Both the position numbers and the translations under genes were made by a program. From contig JAFTWC010000048.1 in the NCBI GenBank assembly GCA_017465475.1, positions 1 to 58,905 of the forward strand: a stretch of 58,905 nt of DNA, given 5' to 3'. This document shows, in pieces, positions 44,196 to 49,105 of this stretch (position 1 is its first letter; each line of letters begins with the position of its first letter). Origin of the DNA: Lachnospiraceae bacterium (GTDB lineage: Bacteria; Bacillota; Clostridia; Lachnospirales; Lachnospiraceae). The notes under the pieces are model-generated. The model made no database searches. It was not told the origin of the DNA and saw nothing but the letters and a program-made list of their open reading frames with translations.

Positions 44196-45122
44196 TTAAA
44201 ACTGCTCACACCACTGAATCAAAAGTTCTTTTGCCCGCTCAAAATCTTCCGGATAATACATAAGGCTCAATTCATAATACACGGCTCCGTCTACTACGGC
44301 TCCGACCATCCAGCGGTTTCCGCCAACGCCTTCTTCAAATACTTCGTTTACAAACACCGCCGTCTTCCCGCTTGCGGTCGTATACTCCTCACTCCTGTAA
44401 TCCGGCTTCAATTGCACTACCTCAAAAAAATCCTTGGAATGTCGGATTCCGGTCCCAAACAACGAAATAGGGCTTTCTTCGGTAAATACCGCTGCTGTTT
44501 CATTTATATAGATATCACCCTCTTCGGTCCGGACAAACAAAGATACCTCACCGAGATTCCCCTCCGTATCTCCGATGACACGGACATTGACCTCTTCCAC
44601 TGTCCCCGGAACTTTTGTTTCCTTCATCCCCGCATAACCGATGTAGGCTCTTGCCTCCTCCACGGTATCAAACCGCTGTAACCAACTCGGATAGGTCTGA
44701 CTATAATCTTCCTGCGCCATATAGTCCCGCAAAAAGCCTTCCACTTCCTGAATGTCTCCGGTCAGTTCTTCCGCCGAAATCCGCTCCGTCTCTGTCATCA
44801 GAGAAAAACCATGATTGTCTTTGTCTTCACTCTTTGTAAACTGTAATACACCCAGTTTTGCTGCGTAGGCCACTCCACCGCCACACAACAAAAGCACTAC
44901 CGTTGCCGCCACCGCCCATTTTGCTGCGGTCTTGCTAAAGATTCCGAAACGTACGGTCCTTATAGACTTTTCGCTGTATTCTTCTGCCGCCTTCGCACCG
45001 ATTTCTTCGTAACATTTCTCAACCCATTCTTCCGGCAATTCGTTCATTACCTTTAATAACTTGCTTCCGGTCAATGCATTTTCTTGCATCTTTTCTGTTT
45101 CTTTCATTATCTTCTTTGTCAT
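44196..45122 (-). CDS. Probable anti-sigma factor (single-pass membrane protein)
   Basis: A 308-residue protein whose ATG overlaps the TGA of the ECF sigma gene (ATGA), a strong sign of a sigma/anti-sigma pair. Residues 1-65 are cytoplasmic and should hold the sigma-binding part. One helix lies at about 68-90 (AAKWAVAATVVLLLCGGGVA). The remaining 215 residues are extracellular and resemble DUF4367-type sensors (YTTASGKTAVFVNEVF, VYYELSLMYYPEDF). Signal and targets are unknown. Confidence 0.8.
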   Translation of the reverse strand: MTKKIMKETEKMQENALTGSKLLKVMNELPEEWVEKCYEEIGAKAAEEYSEKSIRTVRFGIFSKTAAKWAVAATVVLLLCGGGVAYAAKLGVLQFTKSEDKDNHGFSLMTETERISAEELTGDIQEVEGFLRDYMAQEDYSQTYPSWLQRFDTVEEARAYIGYAGMKETKVPGTVEEVNVRVIGDTEGNLGEVSLFVRTEEGDIYINETAAVFTEESPISLFGTGIRHSKDFFEVVQLKPDYRSEEYTTASGKTAVFVNEVFEEGVGGNRWMVGAVVDGAVYYELSLMYYPEDFERAKELLIQWCEQF

Positions 45123-45661
45123 ACTGCATCCTCCTTTTTTAATTCACTCCACAATTGTTTGCGTAAGCGGAACAAGATACTTTTTACTTTGCTTTCCCGG
45201 TAACCGAAGGCCATTGCCAGCTCCTTTACGGATTCCCCGTACCAATACCTTCGAAGGAACAGCTTCCGTTTTTCCTCCGGCAAGTCCTTTAAGAACTTTA
45301 CTATCAGTTCACGAAGTCCCGTCTCGTCCCCTACCTGTACATTATCCGGGATGCATTCCATCAGTTCTGCAGAAAGTTCCACCACAGCAGCGCTGCGCTT
45401 TGCTGCTTTATCTCGTTCTATCTTGTTTAAGACCAGATTTCGACAAATTTTTGCCGCATAGGCGAATAAGTATTCCGGCCGGTTCGGCGGTACACTGTTC
45501 CACACCGCCAAATAGGTATCATTGACGCATTCCTCTGCATCTTCTTCCGGGACCATACGTCCGGCCAGTATCTTTAAGCGGGTACCGTACTTTCGTTCCA
45601 GCTCCGAAAGTGCCAACTCTTTTCGCTCCAAAAAAAGCTCCAGAATTTCGCTGTCTTCCAT
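45119..45661 (-). CDS. RNA polymerase sigma factor, ECF family
   Basis: A 180-residue sigma factor. Region 2 spans about 20-90 (PEEDAEECVNDTYLAVWNSV, YLFAYAAKICRNLVLNKIER) and region 4 about 120-175 (KLFLRRYWYGESVKELAMAF, then RESKVKSILFRLRKQLW). The start is the ATG at 45659-45661, with AAAGGAGG 7 bases upstream; a GTG six codons earlier overlaps that site. Upstream (45700-45710), GCAACCT could be an ECF-type -35 for autoregulation, but I see no clear partner. The next 400 bases upstream hold the alternating-repeat array. Confidence 0.9.
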   Translation of the reverse strand: MEDSEILELFLERKELALSELERKYGTRLKILAGRMVPEEDAEECVNDTYLAVWNSVPPNRPEYLFAYAAKICRNLVLNKIERDKAAKRSAAVVELSAELMECIPDNVQVGDETGLRELIVKFLKDLPEEKRKLFLRRYWYGESVKELAMAFGYRESKVKSILFRLRKQLWSELKKEDAV

Positions 45662-45789
45662 CCCATTTCCTCCTTTCACCTTAATAAACAGAAAAACATG
45701 TGGGTAGGTTGCGTGTAAAATAAAAAAAGTAGTAGATACTTTGGTTTATAATCCGCCTGCAATATATATACAACAAACCGCCTGGCATT

Positions 45790-46182
45790 TACCATGAGGA
45801 CACGATGATTAATATATTTCATGGTACACTAATTTTTCCAATCCGAGAATTTACCATGAGATATACTGATAGCTGTCTCTATCATGGTACAAAGCAAAAT
45901 CCTTCAACGAATAATTACCATGAAATATCTCATATCCTTATGTATCATGGTAAACAACTCGTCTTTCCCGACAGTGAAAGTTCAAATTTACTCAAAAAGC
46001 AAGAATAAACTCAATAATTTACCATGAGATATCATGGTTGCACCTCCTCTCATGGTAATAAACGACGACAGCACTTTTTTCTTACCATGATAACTCATGA
46101 ATACGACGTATATCATGGCAAATAGAAGAAACAAAAAAAATTCCTTACCATGATATAAGAAGAAAACCATTTCGTCATGGTA
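45790..46182. repeat. Array of six inverted pairs of TACCATGA with regular spacing
   Basis: TACCATGA starts at 45790, 45852, 45916, 46020, 46083 and 46146. Its complement TCATGGTA starts at 45819, 45882, 45945, 46050, 46113 (one mismatch) and 46175. Each pair encloses 21-22 bases of unrelated sequence. Pairs are separated by 25-26 bases, except one gap of 67. Successive right half-sites are 63, 63, 105, 63 and 62 bases apart. Several arms extend to TTTACCATGA. Every unit could form an RNA hairpin of 8-10 bp. The array lies between the ECF sigma gene and the terminator of the pheST-GNAT transcript, and contains no credible gene. No match to a known repeat class is recognised. Confidence 0.93.
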
Positions 46183-46193
46183 AACATAAAAAC

Positions 46194-46217
46194 AGAGGCC
46201 GTCTTCCGACGACCTCT
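46194..46217 (-). terminator. Terminator of the pheS-pheT-GNAT operon
   Basis: On the minus strand AGAGGTCGTC, loop GGAA, GACGGCCTCT (10 bp, one G-U) is followed by TGTTTTTAT. The last repeat unit ends 11 bases away. Confidence 0.85.
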
Positions 46218-46228
46218 TCTTACACTTC

Positions 46229-46663
46229 TTATAAATCCCGTTCCATATCCTTGTCACCTTCAAACTCGGCACCGGTGTGCACAAAGCCAACACTTTCATA
46301 AAGTCTTAAGGCCACGTCATTTCCTTCATGATACGTGACGGATACTCGTTTGTACCGCCCTTCTTCACGCATCTTTTCAAGAACCAGCAAAAGTGCGGCT
46401 TTCCCGTACCCTCTGCCTTGATACCTCCTATCGATGAAGAACTGACAAAGATTGTATACATTTAACTCCGGAAGGTCTGCATAATAAATTAAGCCTACCG
46501 GAAGTTCATCCGCAAGGATTTCAAACAAGCTCGCATGTAACTCCGCTTCCTCTTTTACATCCTCAATCATCTGTTCCGCTGAATGTACAAACGGTTCCTG
46601 TTCAGTTGAAACCGCCAGATTCGTTACATATCCTTCCGGATTAATTCTACGAATGGTAACCAT
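46229..46663 (-). CDS. GNAT family N-acetyltransferase (diamine acetyltransferase-like)
   Basis: A 144-residue GNAT protein. The fold is complete, with the acetyl-CoA loop in FFIDRRYQGRGYGKAALLLV and the C-terminal NDVALRLYESVGFVHTGAEF. The style matches spermidine/spermine or PaiA-like acetyltransferases, but the substrate is not determined. The start is the ATG at 46661-46663, with GGGGAG upstream; an ATG four codons earlier is too close to that site. It follows pheT by 21 bases and is the last gene of the operon. Confidence 0.83.
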   Translation of the reverse strand: MVTIRRINPEGYVTNLAVSTEQEPFVHSAEQMIEDVKEEAELHASLFEILADELPVGLIYYADLPELNVYNLCQFFIDRRYQGRGYGKAALLLVLEKMREEGRYKRVSVTYHEGNDVALRLYESVGFVHTGAEFEGDKDMERDL

Positions 46664-46684
46664 GATACTCCCCACTTTATTCCT

Positions 46685-49105
46685 TTAGCTTCTCAACTCT
46701 ACACCGTAGCTCTTACCAAGCTGCTTTAAAATCTTCTTTACGAAACCGTCCACGGACTCAGCGGTGAATGCTTCCTCCTTCGGAGTGAACACAACGGAGA
46801 ATGCCATACTCTTCTTGTCTGCTGCAATCTGCTCACCCTCGTAAATATCGAAGAGGTTGATGCTGGTGATGTACTTACAGGACTCCTTCATTACCTTCTC
46901 GATTTCGCCGCAAGTGATAGTTCTGTCCACAACGAATGCCAGGTCTCTCTTTTCCTCCGGGAACTTGGAAAGCGGGGTGAATACTGCCTTCATACCGTAC
47001 CACTGGGACACGGTCTTTAAATCCATCTCTAAGATGAAGGCCTGGGTACGCATATCGCAGGTATCCATTACGTCGTAAGCCAACTTACCGAAGTAACCGA
47101 TTTCAATACCGTCGCATAAAATCTTTGCGGTCTGGTACGGATGTAAGAAGGTGTTCTGCATCGGCTCGTAGGTGAAGGTAAGCTGCAACGTCTCAGCTAC
47201 CTTTTCTGCCATACCCTTCATGGTATAGAAGTTCTCCTTCTCACCGAATACACCGATACAAAGTCTCGGCTTCTCGTCCGGATACTGCGTAAGCGGTAAC
47301 TCATACGGAAGGAATACATTACCGATTTCATAAAGTCTACCCTCTAAGTTGCCCTTCTTCTGGTTATTCGCAATGGCATTAATCATGGAAGCCGCAAGGG
47401 TGGTTCTCATGAGAGAAAGCTCCTCACTGATCGGATTCACGATACGGATTGCCTTACGCTCTACCGCATTCTCCGGAAGCTTTAACATATCCAAATCTGC
47501 CGGAGAGAAGAAGGAGTAATGGATGCACTCGTAAGCACCGGTAGCACAGAGCGCCTTCTTTAAACGAAGCTCACTCTTCTGGGTCTGATTAAGGCCTCCT
47601 AAGGTTACCTGTGCGGACGGCATGAATGCCGGAACCACATGCTCGTAGCCGTACAGACGAATCACCTCTTCCGCTACGTCCTGATAGGTTTCCATATCCT
47701 CACGGAATGCCGGCACCTGAAGAGTTAAGGTATCGCCCTCAATCTTCGGTGCGAAGGTCAGGTTATTCATAATTCTTAAAATATCATCGTTCGGAACCGT
47801 AATACCAAGCACCTTGTTTACCTTCTCGATGCTGACGGAAAGAGTCTTCGGCTCTACGCTGTTACCGGTATTGACATCCACATGGGTACGTCCTACCTTA
47901 CCGCAGCCAAGCTCCTCGATCAAGTGAAGGGCTCTCTTCATTGCCATTACGGTTGCGTACTCGTCTACACCCTTTTCGTAACGGGCACTGGAATCGGAAC
48001 GCTTACCCAGGGCTCTGGAAGTTCTTCTGATATTATCTCTTGCAAACTTTGCGGACTCGAACAGAACTGCGCTTGTGGTCTCACGAATCTCAGAGTTAAG
48101 ACCGCCCATCACACCGGCTAATGCTACCGGCTTTACACCGTCGCAGATTAACATATTGGCATCGGTGAGGGTAAGCTCCTGCTCATCTAAAGTCACAATC
48201 TTCTCACCGTTAGTTGCACGTCTTACATTAATTGCATTGCCCTCTAAAGTAGAAAGATCGAAAGCATGCATCGGCTGACCAAGCTCCTTTAAAATGTAGT
48301 TGGTAATATCTACTACGTTGGAAATCGCATCAATTCCCACAAGAGCCAGTCTTCTCTTCATCCAAGCCGGAGACTCTGCAATCTTTACATCGGTTACATA
48401 ATGTGCGCTGTAACGCGGACATAAATCCGGGCAATCTACCTTTACGGAGAATCCGTCTAAAGAAGCATCGGTCTCGGTGTAATCAAGGGCCGGCATTTTA
48501 AGCTCCTTCTGAAGCACTGCCGCAACTTCTCTTGCAATACCGAAAATACTCTGGCAATCCGGTCTGTTAGCAGTAATTGCAATATCGAAAATCCAGTCAT
48601 CAAGGCCTAACATCGGCTTTACATCAGCACCAATTTGTGCATCTTCCGGAAGAACCAAAAGTCCGTTGTAACCCGCACCCGGATACATATTTTCACTAAC
48701 ACCAAGCTCTACACCGGAGCAAAGCATACCGAAAGACTCGTAACCACGAAGCTTACCCTTACCGATGGTCATAACGCCCTCTATGGTCTTATGATCCTTT
48801 GCGGTTGCGTAAACCGTTGCGCCAACCAATGCTACCGGGAACTTGCCCCCTGCCGCTACGTTATCCGCACCACAGCAAATCTGGAAAGTACCGTGCTCGC
48901 CGCAATCTACCTGACACACATGTAAATGGGTATCCGGAATAGCCTCACAGGTCAAAACCTTACCGACAACAACTTTACTGATATCCTTACCCACTTCGTA
49001 TAATTCTTCTACTTCAAATCCACAAGAGAACAACTTATCCTGTAACTCCTGCGGAGTAACATCTACATCAACATAATCTTTAATCCAACTTAATGGTGCT
49101 ATCAT
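46685..49105 (-). CDS. pheT: Phenylalanyl-tRNA synthetase beta subunit
   Basis: An 806-residue subunit of the alpha2-beta2 enzyme that charges tRNA-Phe. It begins MIAPLSWIKDYVDVD; the tRNA-binding OB domain spans 40-150 (THLHVCQVDCGEHGTFQICC). The B3/B4 editing domain lies near 200-370 (GQPMHAFDLSTLEG), B5 near 405-475, the catalytic-like core follows, and an FDX-ACB anticodon-binding domain ends it (SKFPEEKRDLAFVVDRTITC). Length is standard. It is co-transcribed with pheS, whose stop is 93 bases upstream, and is controlled by the pheS T-box. Confidence 0.96.
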   Translation of the reverse strand: MIAPLSWIKDYVDVDVTPQELQDKLFSCGFEVEELYEVGKDISKVVVGKVLTCEAIPDTHLHVCQVDCGEHGTFQICCGADNVAAGGKFPVALVGATVYATAKDHKTIEGVMTIGKGKLRGYESFGMLCSGVELGVSENMYPGAGYNGLLVLPEDAQIGADVKPMLGLDDWIFDIAITANRPDCQSIFGIAREVAAVLQKELKMPALDYTETDASLDGFSVKVDCPDLCPRYSAHYVTDVKIAESPAWMKRRLALVGIDAISNVVDITNYILKELGQPMHAFDLSTLEGNAINVRRATNGEKIVTLDEQELTLTDANMLICDGVKPVALAGVMGGLNSEIRETTSAVLFESAKFARDNIRRTSRALGKRSDSSARYEKGVDEYATVMAMKRALHLIEELGCGKVGRTHVDVNTGNSVEPKTLSVSIEKVNKVLGITVPNDDILRIMNNLTFAPKIEGDTLTLQVPAFREDMETYQDVAEEVIRLYGYEHVVPAFMPSAQVTLGGLNQTQKSELRLKKALCATGAYECIHYSFFSPADLDMLKLPENAVERKAIRIVNPISEELSLMRTTLAASMINAIANNQKKGNLEGRLYEIGNVFLPYELPLTQYPDEKPRLCIGVFGEKENFYTMKGMAEKVAETLQLTFTYEPMQNTFLHPYQTAKILCDGIEIGYFGKLAYDVMDTCDMRTQAFILEMDLKTVSQWYGMKAVFTPLSKFPEEKRDLAFVVDRTITCGEIEKVMKESCKYITSINLFDIYEGEQIAADKKSMAFSVVFTPKEEAFTAESVDGFVKKILKQLGKSYGVELRS

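Follow-up and report, generated by a model that had tools for sequence, protein, structure and literature searches.

Helically phased arrays of alternating half-sites between genes of a Lachnospiraceae genus: a candidate DNA-binding lattice

The array beside pheT

The window (the whole stretch of DNA analysed here, 58,905 nucleotides of a contig from a Lachnospiraceae bacterium) carries on its minus strand pheT (46685..49105; phenylalanyl-tRNA synthetase beta, named by recognition), a GNAT acetyltransferase gene (46229..46675) and a gene for an ECF-type sigma factor (45119..45679). The array that concerns us lies between the last two, with the acetyltransferase gene upstream and the sigma gene downstream. 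The pheST-GNAT unit ends in a terminator-like hairpin followed by a T run (46186..46216, minus strand; arms 46195-46203 and 46208-46216, read by eye), and 3 bp separate this hairpin from one edge of the array, while 110 bp separate the other edge from the sigma gene.

The array itself consists of twelve half-sites that alternate in orientation across 45790-46182, 11 of them being exact copies of TACCATGA or its reverse form TCATGGTA. Taken as inward pairs (the first half-site forward, the second reverse), they form pair 1 (45790..45826, 37 bp; TACCATGA at 45790-45797 and TCATGGTA at 45819-45826), pair 2 (45852..45889, 38 bp; 45852-45859 and 45882-45889) and pair 3 (45916..45952, 37 bp; 45916-45923 and 45945-45952), then a central gap of 67 bp (45953..46019) with no half-site at one mismatch or fewer, and then pair 4 (46020..46057, 38 bp; 46020-46027 and 46050-46057), pair 5 (46083..46120; 46083-46090 and 46113-46120, the latter reading TCATGGCA, with one mismatch) and pair 6 (46146..46182, 37 bp; 46146-46153 and 46175-46182). 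Pair 4 starts 104 bp past the start of pair 3, which amounts to about four extra helical turns. An additional, off-lattice copy (AACCATGA, 46032-46039, minus strand) was seen within pair 4. Our recount agrees with an earlier sequence-only reading of this DNA, which had described the alternation and placed the right half-sites 63, 63, 105, 63 and 62 bp apart. Allowing up to one mismatch, the motif occurs 76 times in the window, compared with 41.1 +- 6.5 times in 100 shuffles (none of which reaches 76), and the exact copies are concentrated in the array, with 11 in its 393 bp and 4 in the remaining 58.5 kb (Poisson P ~1e-25). A protein-coding repeat gene was considered and rejected, since the unit steps (62, 64, 104, 63 and 63) break the reading frame, as the earlier claim that this is not a gene implied; the longest frames across the array are partial, with 67 and 103 amino acids.

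Distribution, spacing and half-site types in the genus

The genome to which the window belongs (G000; 3.07 Mb in 81 contigs, 89% complete) contains at least 13 such arrays, including the one in the window. We call class 1 (or GA-type) those made of TACCATGA...TCATGGTA pairs, and assign to a second class those with TACCATTG or TACCAT-YY half-sites. All 41 exact class-1 pairs of G000 fall within nine arrays, with none found for the reversed-pattern control, and four more arrays (C11, with two pairs only, C37, C38 and C48) have TACCATTG-type or mixed half-sites; a lone T-type pair is also found on C17. Arrays are present in six of the ten genomes of the genus, with three consecutive core half-sites matching, on forward and reverse strands together, 84 times in G000, 8 in G001, 7 in G003, 10 in G005, 63 in G007 and 34 in G009, and zero times in G002, G004, G006 and G008 (in these core-pattern searches the backwards-read control matches the outer spacing of the arrays, and is thus no true control for them). 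Exact class-1 pairs occur in four of the ten (41, 40, 8 and 2, most of them in G000 and G007) and in none of 51 other genomes.

Beyond the genus the pattern fades quickly. Among 397 genomes of the family, more than one exact class-1 pair was found only in G000, three others having one each (the control gave one genome with one), and the three-core-half-site pattern matched two genomes outside the genus, once each, exactly as the reversed pattern did; these matches are at chance level. In a collection of 84,980 genomes, the class-1 pattern of three half-sites matched 12 stretches from three Lachnospiraceae MAGs (from sheep colon, water buffalo caecum and a source unstated), which are apparently not additional to G003, G005 and G007. 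Two array patterns had no match among viral contigs, and the window array had none among phages and plasmids. A motif-blind scan for the architecture, in which 853 kb were covered as 60 stretches drawn from as many other genera of the family, produced no match, with 24 of 24 positive controls recovered, and is a weak negative, since only about three to four arrays would be expected in that much DNA if every genus had them.

Throughout these arrays of gut bacteria, which span about 400 bases, the conserved core TACCAT recurs every 31-32 bp (three helical turns) in alternating orientation. Given that our first spacing counts came from a filtered list, we repeated them without any spacing filter on the 19 class-1 arrays of four genomes, where 109 of 112 left half-sites have a right partner at 29 or 30 bp and three have none, the other left-to-right distances within 60 bp being 12 and 18, once each. 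From right to left, 79 of the distances within 60 bp measure 33 or 34, two measure 32 and three have other values; larger gaps of 65, 75, 76 and 77 were each seen once to six times. Gaps in class-1 arrays add about one, three, four or five helical turns. All 19 class-1 arrays start with an inward half-site and 17 also end with one, the first pair being of the short (29) type in 18; among T-type or mixed arrays 13 of 15 start inward, the exceptions being L082 and L165. In ten T-type or mixed arrays measured on the exact TACCAT core, 52 of 53 inner distances fall at 30-32 and all 40 outer distances at 31-32. Inner and outer core distances being equal (mostly 31-32 bp), the half-sites form an even lattice of alternating elements. 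The inverted pairs proposed by the sequence-only reading consequently survive in part, in the inward pair with which class-1 arrays begin, while the core distances make no distinction between the inside and the outside of a pair.

The lattice is also in register with the helix. Among the steps from one left half-site to the next in 13 arrays, the 63-bp step gives a peak at 10.5 bp per turn. The ten odd steps (74, 95, 104, 105, 106 and 116 bp) give theirs at 10.5-10.6 bp per turn, with weaker alias peaks at 9.6 and 11.7-11.8 bp per turn that the 63-bp step excludes. The half-sites thus lie on one helical face at constant phase, and spacing in relatives, which had been set beforehand as a check on function, is not random. 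A common layout comprises three pairs, a gap of about four extra turns and three further pairs; other arrays have five to nine pairs and no gap. One array, L005, has an extra half-site inside its gap, and at one locus shared by G000 (L010) and G007 (L069) the central gap is 65 in the former and 45 in the latter, a difference of about two helical turns, the number of pairs differing too. Part of the regularity comes from duplication, as recent tandem copies of a 63-64 bp unit are found in L005, L067, L068 and L079.

A logo of 221 class-1 half-sites reads (T/G)TACCATGANAA, with T-rich sequence upstream and an AT-rich pair centre. The two bases that follow TACCAT are uniform within most arrays. 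Both sides have GA in GA/GA arrays, and L064 and L160 combine T-type half-sites on the left with GA on the right (10 of 10 on each side). L078, L163 and L165 pair a YY side with a TG side, three of their 32 half-sites deviating, and in L079 the right half-sites are TG, as are most of the left ones; in L085 the two bases are nearly random. We also observed that the base at position -1 of TACCATGA in class 1 (mostly T or G) is anti-correlated between neighbours, with 17 matches between outer neighbours where 33.7 are expected.

Half-sites of opposite orientation are complementary, and so the arrays fold strongly when compared with full shuffles (z -4.6 to -10), as would a transcribed run of short hairpins acting as an RNA element, which was among the possibilities first raised for the window. 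When only the spacers are shuffled, two of ten strand tests stay low (L065, plus strand, z -2.7; L066, plus strand, z -3.4), but in the other eight no clear signal is present over and above the half-sites (z -1.3 to +0.7). Between outer neighbours, a single flanking position of 23 over-matches palindromically (position 11, p ~0.006), whereas in 116 inward pairs no adjoining position does so and several under-match, partly as an effect of strand composition. Seventeen of 20 pairs with a variant second base are uncompensated, no Rfam family matches at its gathering score or near it, and the spacing is equal inside and outside the pairs and helically phased. The covariation and the structure beyond sequence conservation that mark a structured RNA were thus not found, the two low fold tests pointing the opposite way; with the shuffling, compensation and palindromic-extension tests giving no consistent support, we regard the hairpin explanation as very improbable.

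Conservation and turnover at shared loci

In four orthologous comparisons, in which the half-sites served as alignment anchors, half-sites are 91-98% identical and spacers 63-66% (47-50% when the spacers are shuffled), and the distances between half-sites are equal within 2 bp. Since half-sites and distances are kept while the spacers diverge, selection acts on the half-sites and on the lengths between them, and the earlier proposal that only the motif and its spacing are constrained is supported. The same comparisons bear on a CRISPR-like or spacer-acquiring array, which would be suggested by short repeats with unrelated sequences of 21-25 bp between them. Such an array has direct repeats and foreign-derived spacers; here the repeats alternate in orientation, the spacers of a given locus drift by substitution between species and the window array matches no phage or plasmid, so that, in line with what was first said of the window, a classic CRISPR is not at hand and the probability of any relative of it is negligible.

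Occupancy of each locus is patchy across genomes, and four of them (G002, G004, G006 and G008) do without arrays. The gap between rplA and rplJ holds an array in G000, G003, G005 (where the copy is shortened by other sequence) and G007, and none was found within the stretches examined in the other six genomes. In L055 (G004) the position of this G000 array is taken by a long inverted-repeat element (GAATTCGGGTGTCAAAGC ... GCTTTGACACCCGAATTC), and G006 likewise carries other sequence there. Five genomes can be read at pheT, and the answer to the same-locus check suggested for close strains is divided: G007 shares the array (with only about 100 bp between it and pheT), and G003, G004 and G009 do not have it there, G004 presenting a clean empty site. 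The ilvE locus bears an array in six species, of type GA/GA in G000, G003 and G007, of type TG/YY in G001 and G005, and loose (L085) in G009. At ilvE, the location is kept while the half-site type differs between species. The GA arrays resemble each other, as do those of G001 and G005, and no similarity beyond the motif was found between GA-type and T-type arrays of this locus, for which reason replacement of the array is as likely as change of its sites. Two other proposed correspondences were rejected: L082 (G009) is not the L005 locus (purL), its array lying on the other side of a DeoR-type gene, and L079 (G000) and L160 (G007) are not one locus but opposite ends of a segment whose genes differ.

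Patchy presence, the empty site in G004 and the recent 63-64 bp duplications described above would also suit a selfish, satellite-like or mobile element, in which transposase-binding or self-spreading repeats move as units and grow by duplication of 63 bp. The mixed TG/GA arrays L064:7042-7389 (G000) and L160:6068-6413 (G007) are homologous from edge to edge (69%) with unrelated flanks, which suggests movement of a whole array. In G009, L083 and L084 share array and flank, with inverted ends of the GGGxCTGTCGCAT type. As seen by eye, the T-type array at L084:6530-7105 lies inside an apparent small element with GGGxCTGTCGCAT / ATGCGACAGACCC ends, L083:6385-6660 shares one such end and part of the L084 array, and the array of L082 is flanked on one side by both end motifs, which stand 30 bp from each other. 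One or two arrays of G009 seem to belong to a mobile element, and certain arrays may be able to move as whole units. For the arrays as a whole, nevertheless, this explanation is unlikely. No 12-bp inverted repeat (with at most one mismatch) was found within 160 bp on either side of 32 loci, some of whose flanks are short at contig ends, so that shared terminal inverted repeats, as of a transposon or MITE, are confined to what was seen by eye in L084 and part of L083, where the ends lie farther out; ends of the GGGxCTGTCGCAT type are absent near arrays other than L082-L084. Moreover, what non-orthologous arrays share in their flanks is limited to short dispersed repeats, an IS-like end and the case of L083 and L084, arrays stand at the same places in up to six species with half-sites and lengths under selection where measured, the window array has no phage or plasmid match, and viral contigs lack the two patterns searched.

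Further repeats were noticed around the arrays: other tandem repeats (units of about 50-70 bp, by eye) directly beside two of them (L008:7718-7928 and L006:5480-5630) and a dispersed palindromic repeat of the GAGTCCGCAAAGCGGACTC type near several (L008:7156-7236, L011:7620-7661 and L070:6261-6316). Several contigs end near arrays.

A proposed binding lattice between transcription units and its place among known systems

The genes next to the arrays are ordinary and unrelated (rplA, pheT, purL, ilvE, sigma genes, ABC exporters, GH9 and dUTPase, which, beyond the ten proteins scanned with Pfam, we take to be such by recognition). Among those ten, neither ParM/ParR nor ParA/ParB families were found, the other neighbours having been seen as ORFs only. 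A coiled-coil protein encoded beside L080 was considered as the binder and rejected, being present in nine of the ten genomes of the genus, including all four without arrays, and missing from the array-bearing G005. By our own reading of ORFs, the neighbours are co-directional at about 11 of the 18 loci where they can be read, convergent at six and divergent at one (five further loci were unreadable in this respect).

The window array, the rplA-rplJ array and several others follow the end of a transcription unit and precede the start of another. This position would be expected of operators through which a transcription regulator specific to the genus, whether activator or repressor, controls the adjoining promoter, and clustered, phased dimer sites suit cooperative regulators. 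However, at least six independent loci lie between convergent genes, where there is no promoter to control, and a pure promoter switch is disfavoured for that reason; additionally, the neighbouring genes have no visible common theme, and an operator built of at least six dimers in fixed phase would be extravagant. We consider that the arrays are probably not operators.

The RNA-hairpin, CRISPR, coding, REP/BIME (see below) and inverted-end transposon readings, all of them tested, fail for the window array and for most others. The reading we prefer, with a probability of roughly one half, is that the arrays are a DNA-level binding lattice for one or more dimeric, sequence-specific proteins, and a candidate chromosome-organising or insulating site between transcription units. 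Its first part, the lattice on the DNA, is well supported by the sequence comparisons, and the binding array in helical phase for a DNA-organising protein, one of the original proposals for the window, gains support from the genus; for another of them, a cluster of recombination sites, nothing in favour was seen. In this lattice, each inward pair would be occupied by a dimeric protein, with possibly several paralogues serving the GA, TG and YY types of half-site, and adjacent dimers, which all share a single helical face, would join into a cooperative, one-sided filament or bridge. With less certainty, the complex may be a chromosome-organising or insulating site and not the switch of a single gene, acting by bridging arrays or by blocking read-through or the spread of supercoils. 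This role is suggested by the location of the arrays between transcription units, with unrelated neighbours and also between convergent genes, and the preference for organisation or insulation over regulation is the least certain element of the proposal.

A wider version, which we put forward as speculation, would make of the half-sites an address code in a lineage-specific chromosome-organising system. Paralogous DNA-binding proteins would recognise TACCAT half-sites distinguished only by the two bases that follow (GA, TG or YY), bind them as homo- or heterodimers (GA/GA, TG/GA, YY/TG and TG/TG) and form one-sided filaments of about six dimers at some 13 chromosomal sites. These filaments would meet one another or insulate the adjoining transcription units, with species differing in the code used at each site. 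If the lattice reading is true, the DNA of these bacteria encodes a scaffold in helical phase at fixed positions on the chromosome, and the half-site types of this scaffold vary between arrays and, at one shared locus, also between species. It would then be a natural case for the co-evolution of a DNA-protein recognition code with its sites, and a defined target on which sequence-specific organisation or insulation of chromosomes could be tested in Firmicutes.

We found no account of this kind of array in the literature covered, most subscription journals lying outside it. The nearest repeats are REP sequences and BIMEs. In one account (PMC2817692), the REP unit is a palindrome headed by GT(A/G)G, and BIMEs are intergenic elements that have been proposed to act in protein binding, in chromosome organisation and in termination; hybrids of two REP kinds exist among them. 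The arrays are likewise intergenic, with regularly spaced units that alternate in orientation, but each unit is a half-site of 8 bp without palindromic symmetry, the spacers are unrelated and the spacing is tied to the helical turn: TACCATGA is not a palindrome, inward pairs have no palindromic extension and the logo lacks the head. The RAYT transposase (Y1_Tnp, PF01797) was found in two of the ten genomes of the genus (G003 and G008), and neither in G000 (89% complete) nor in G007; membership in the REP/BIME family was rejected on the unit structure and on this absence.

Other known systems resemble the arrays in one respect or another. Plasmid centromeres (ParR/parC, AlfB/parN) and iterons have clustered short sites, cooperative assembly and two half-clusters around a gap, but they are mostly direct repeats that adjoin their own operon on a plasmid, whereas here at least 13 arrays of alternating half-sites lie on a chromosome. 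The sites of parS/Noc, matS/MatP and RacA are dispersed in many copies over the chromosome and read by one protein for its organisation, as single palindromes or loose clusters; we know of no lattice with a fixed three-turn pitch and array-specific half-site types. Subterminal arrays of transposons have multiple short transposase-binding motifs, in both orientations, near the ends of the element, while here element ends were seen only in G009 and half-sites are conserved at fixed host loci. None of the repeat families tested fits these arrays.
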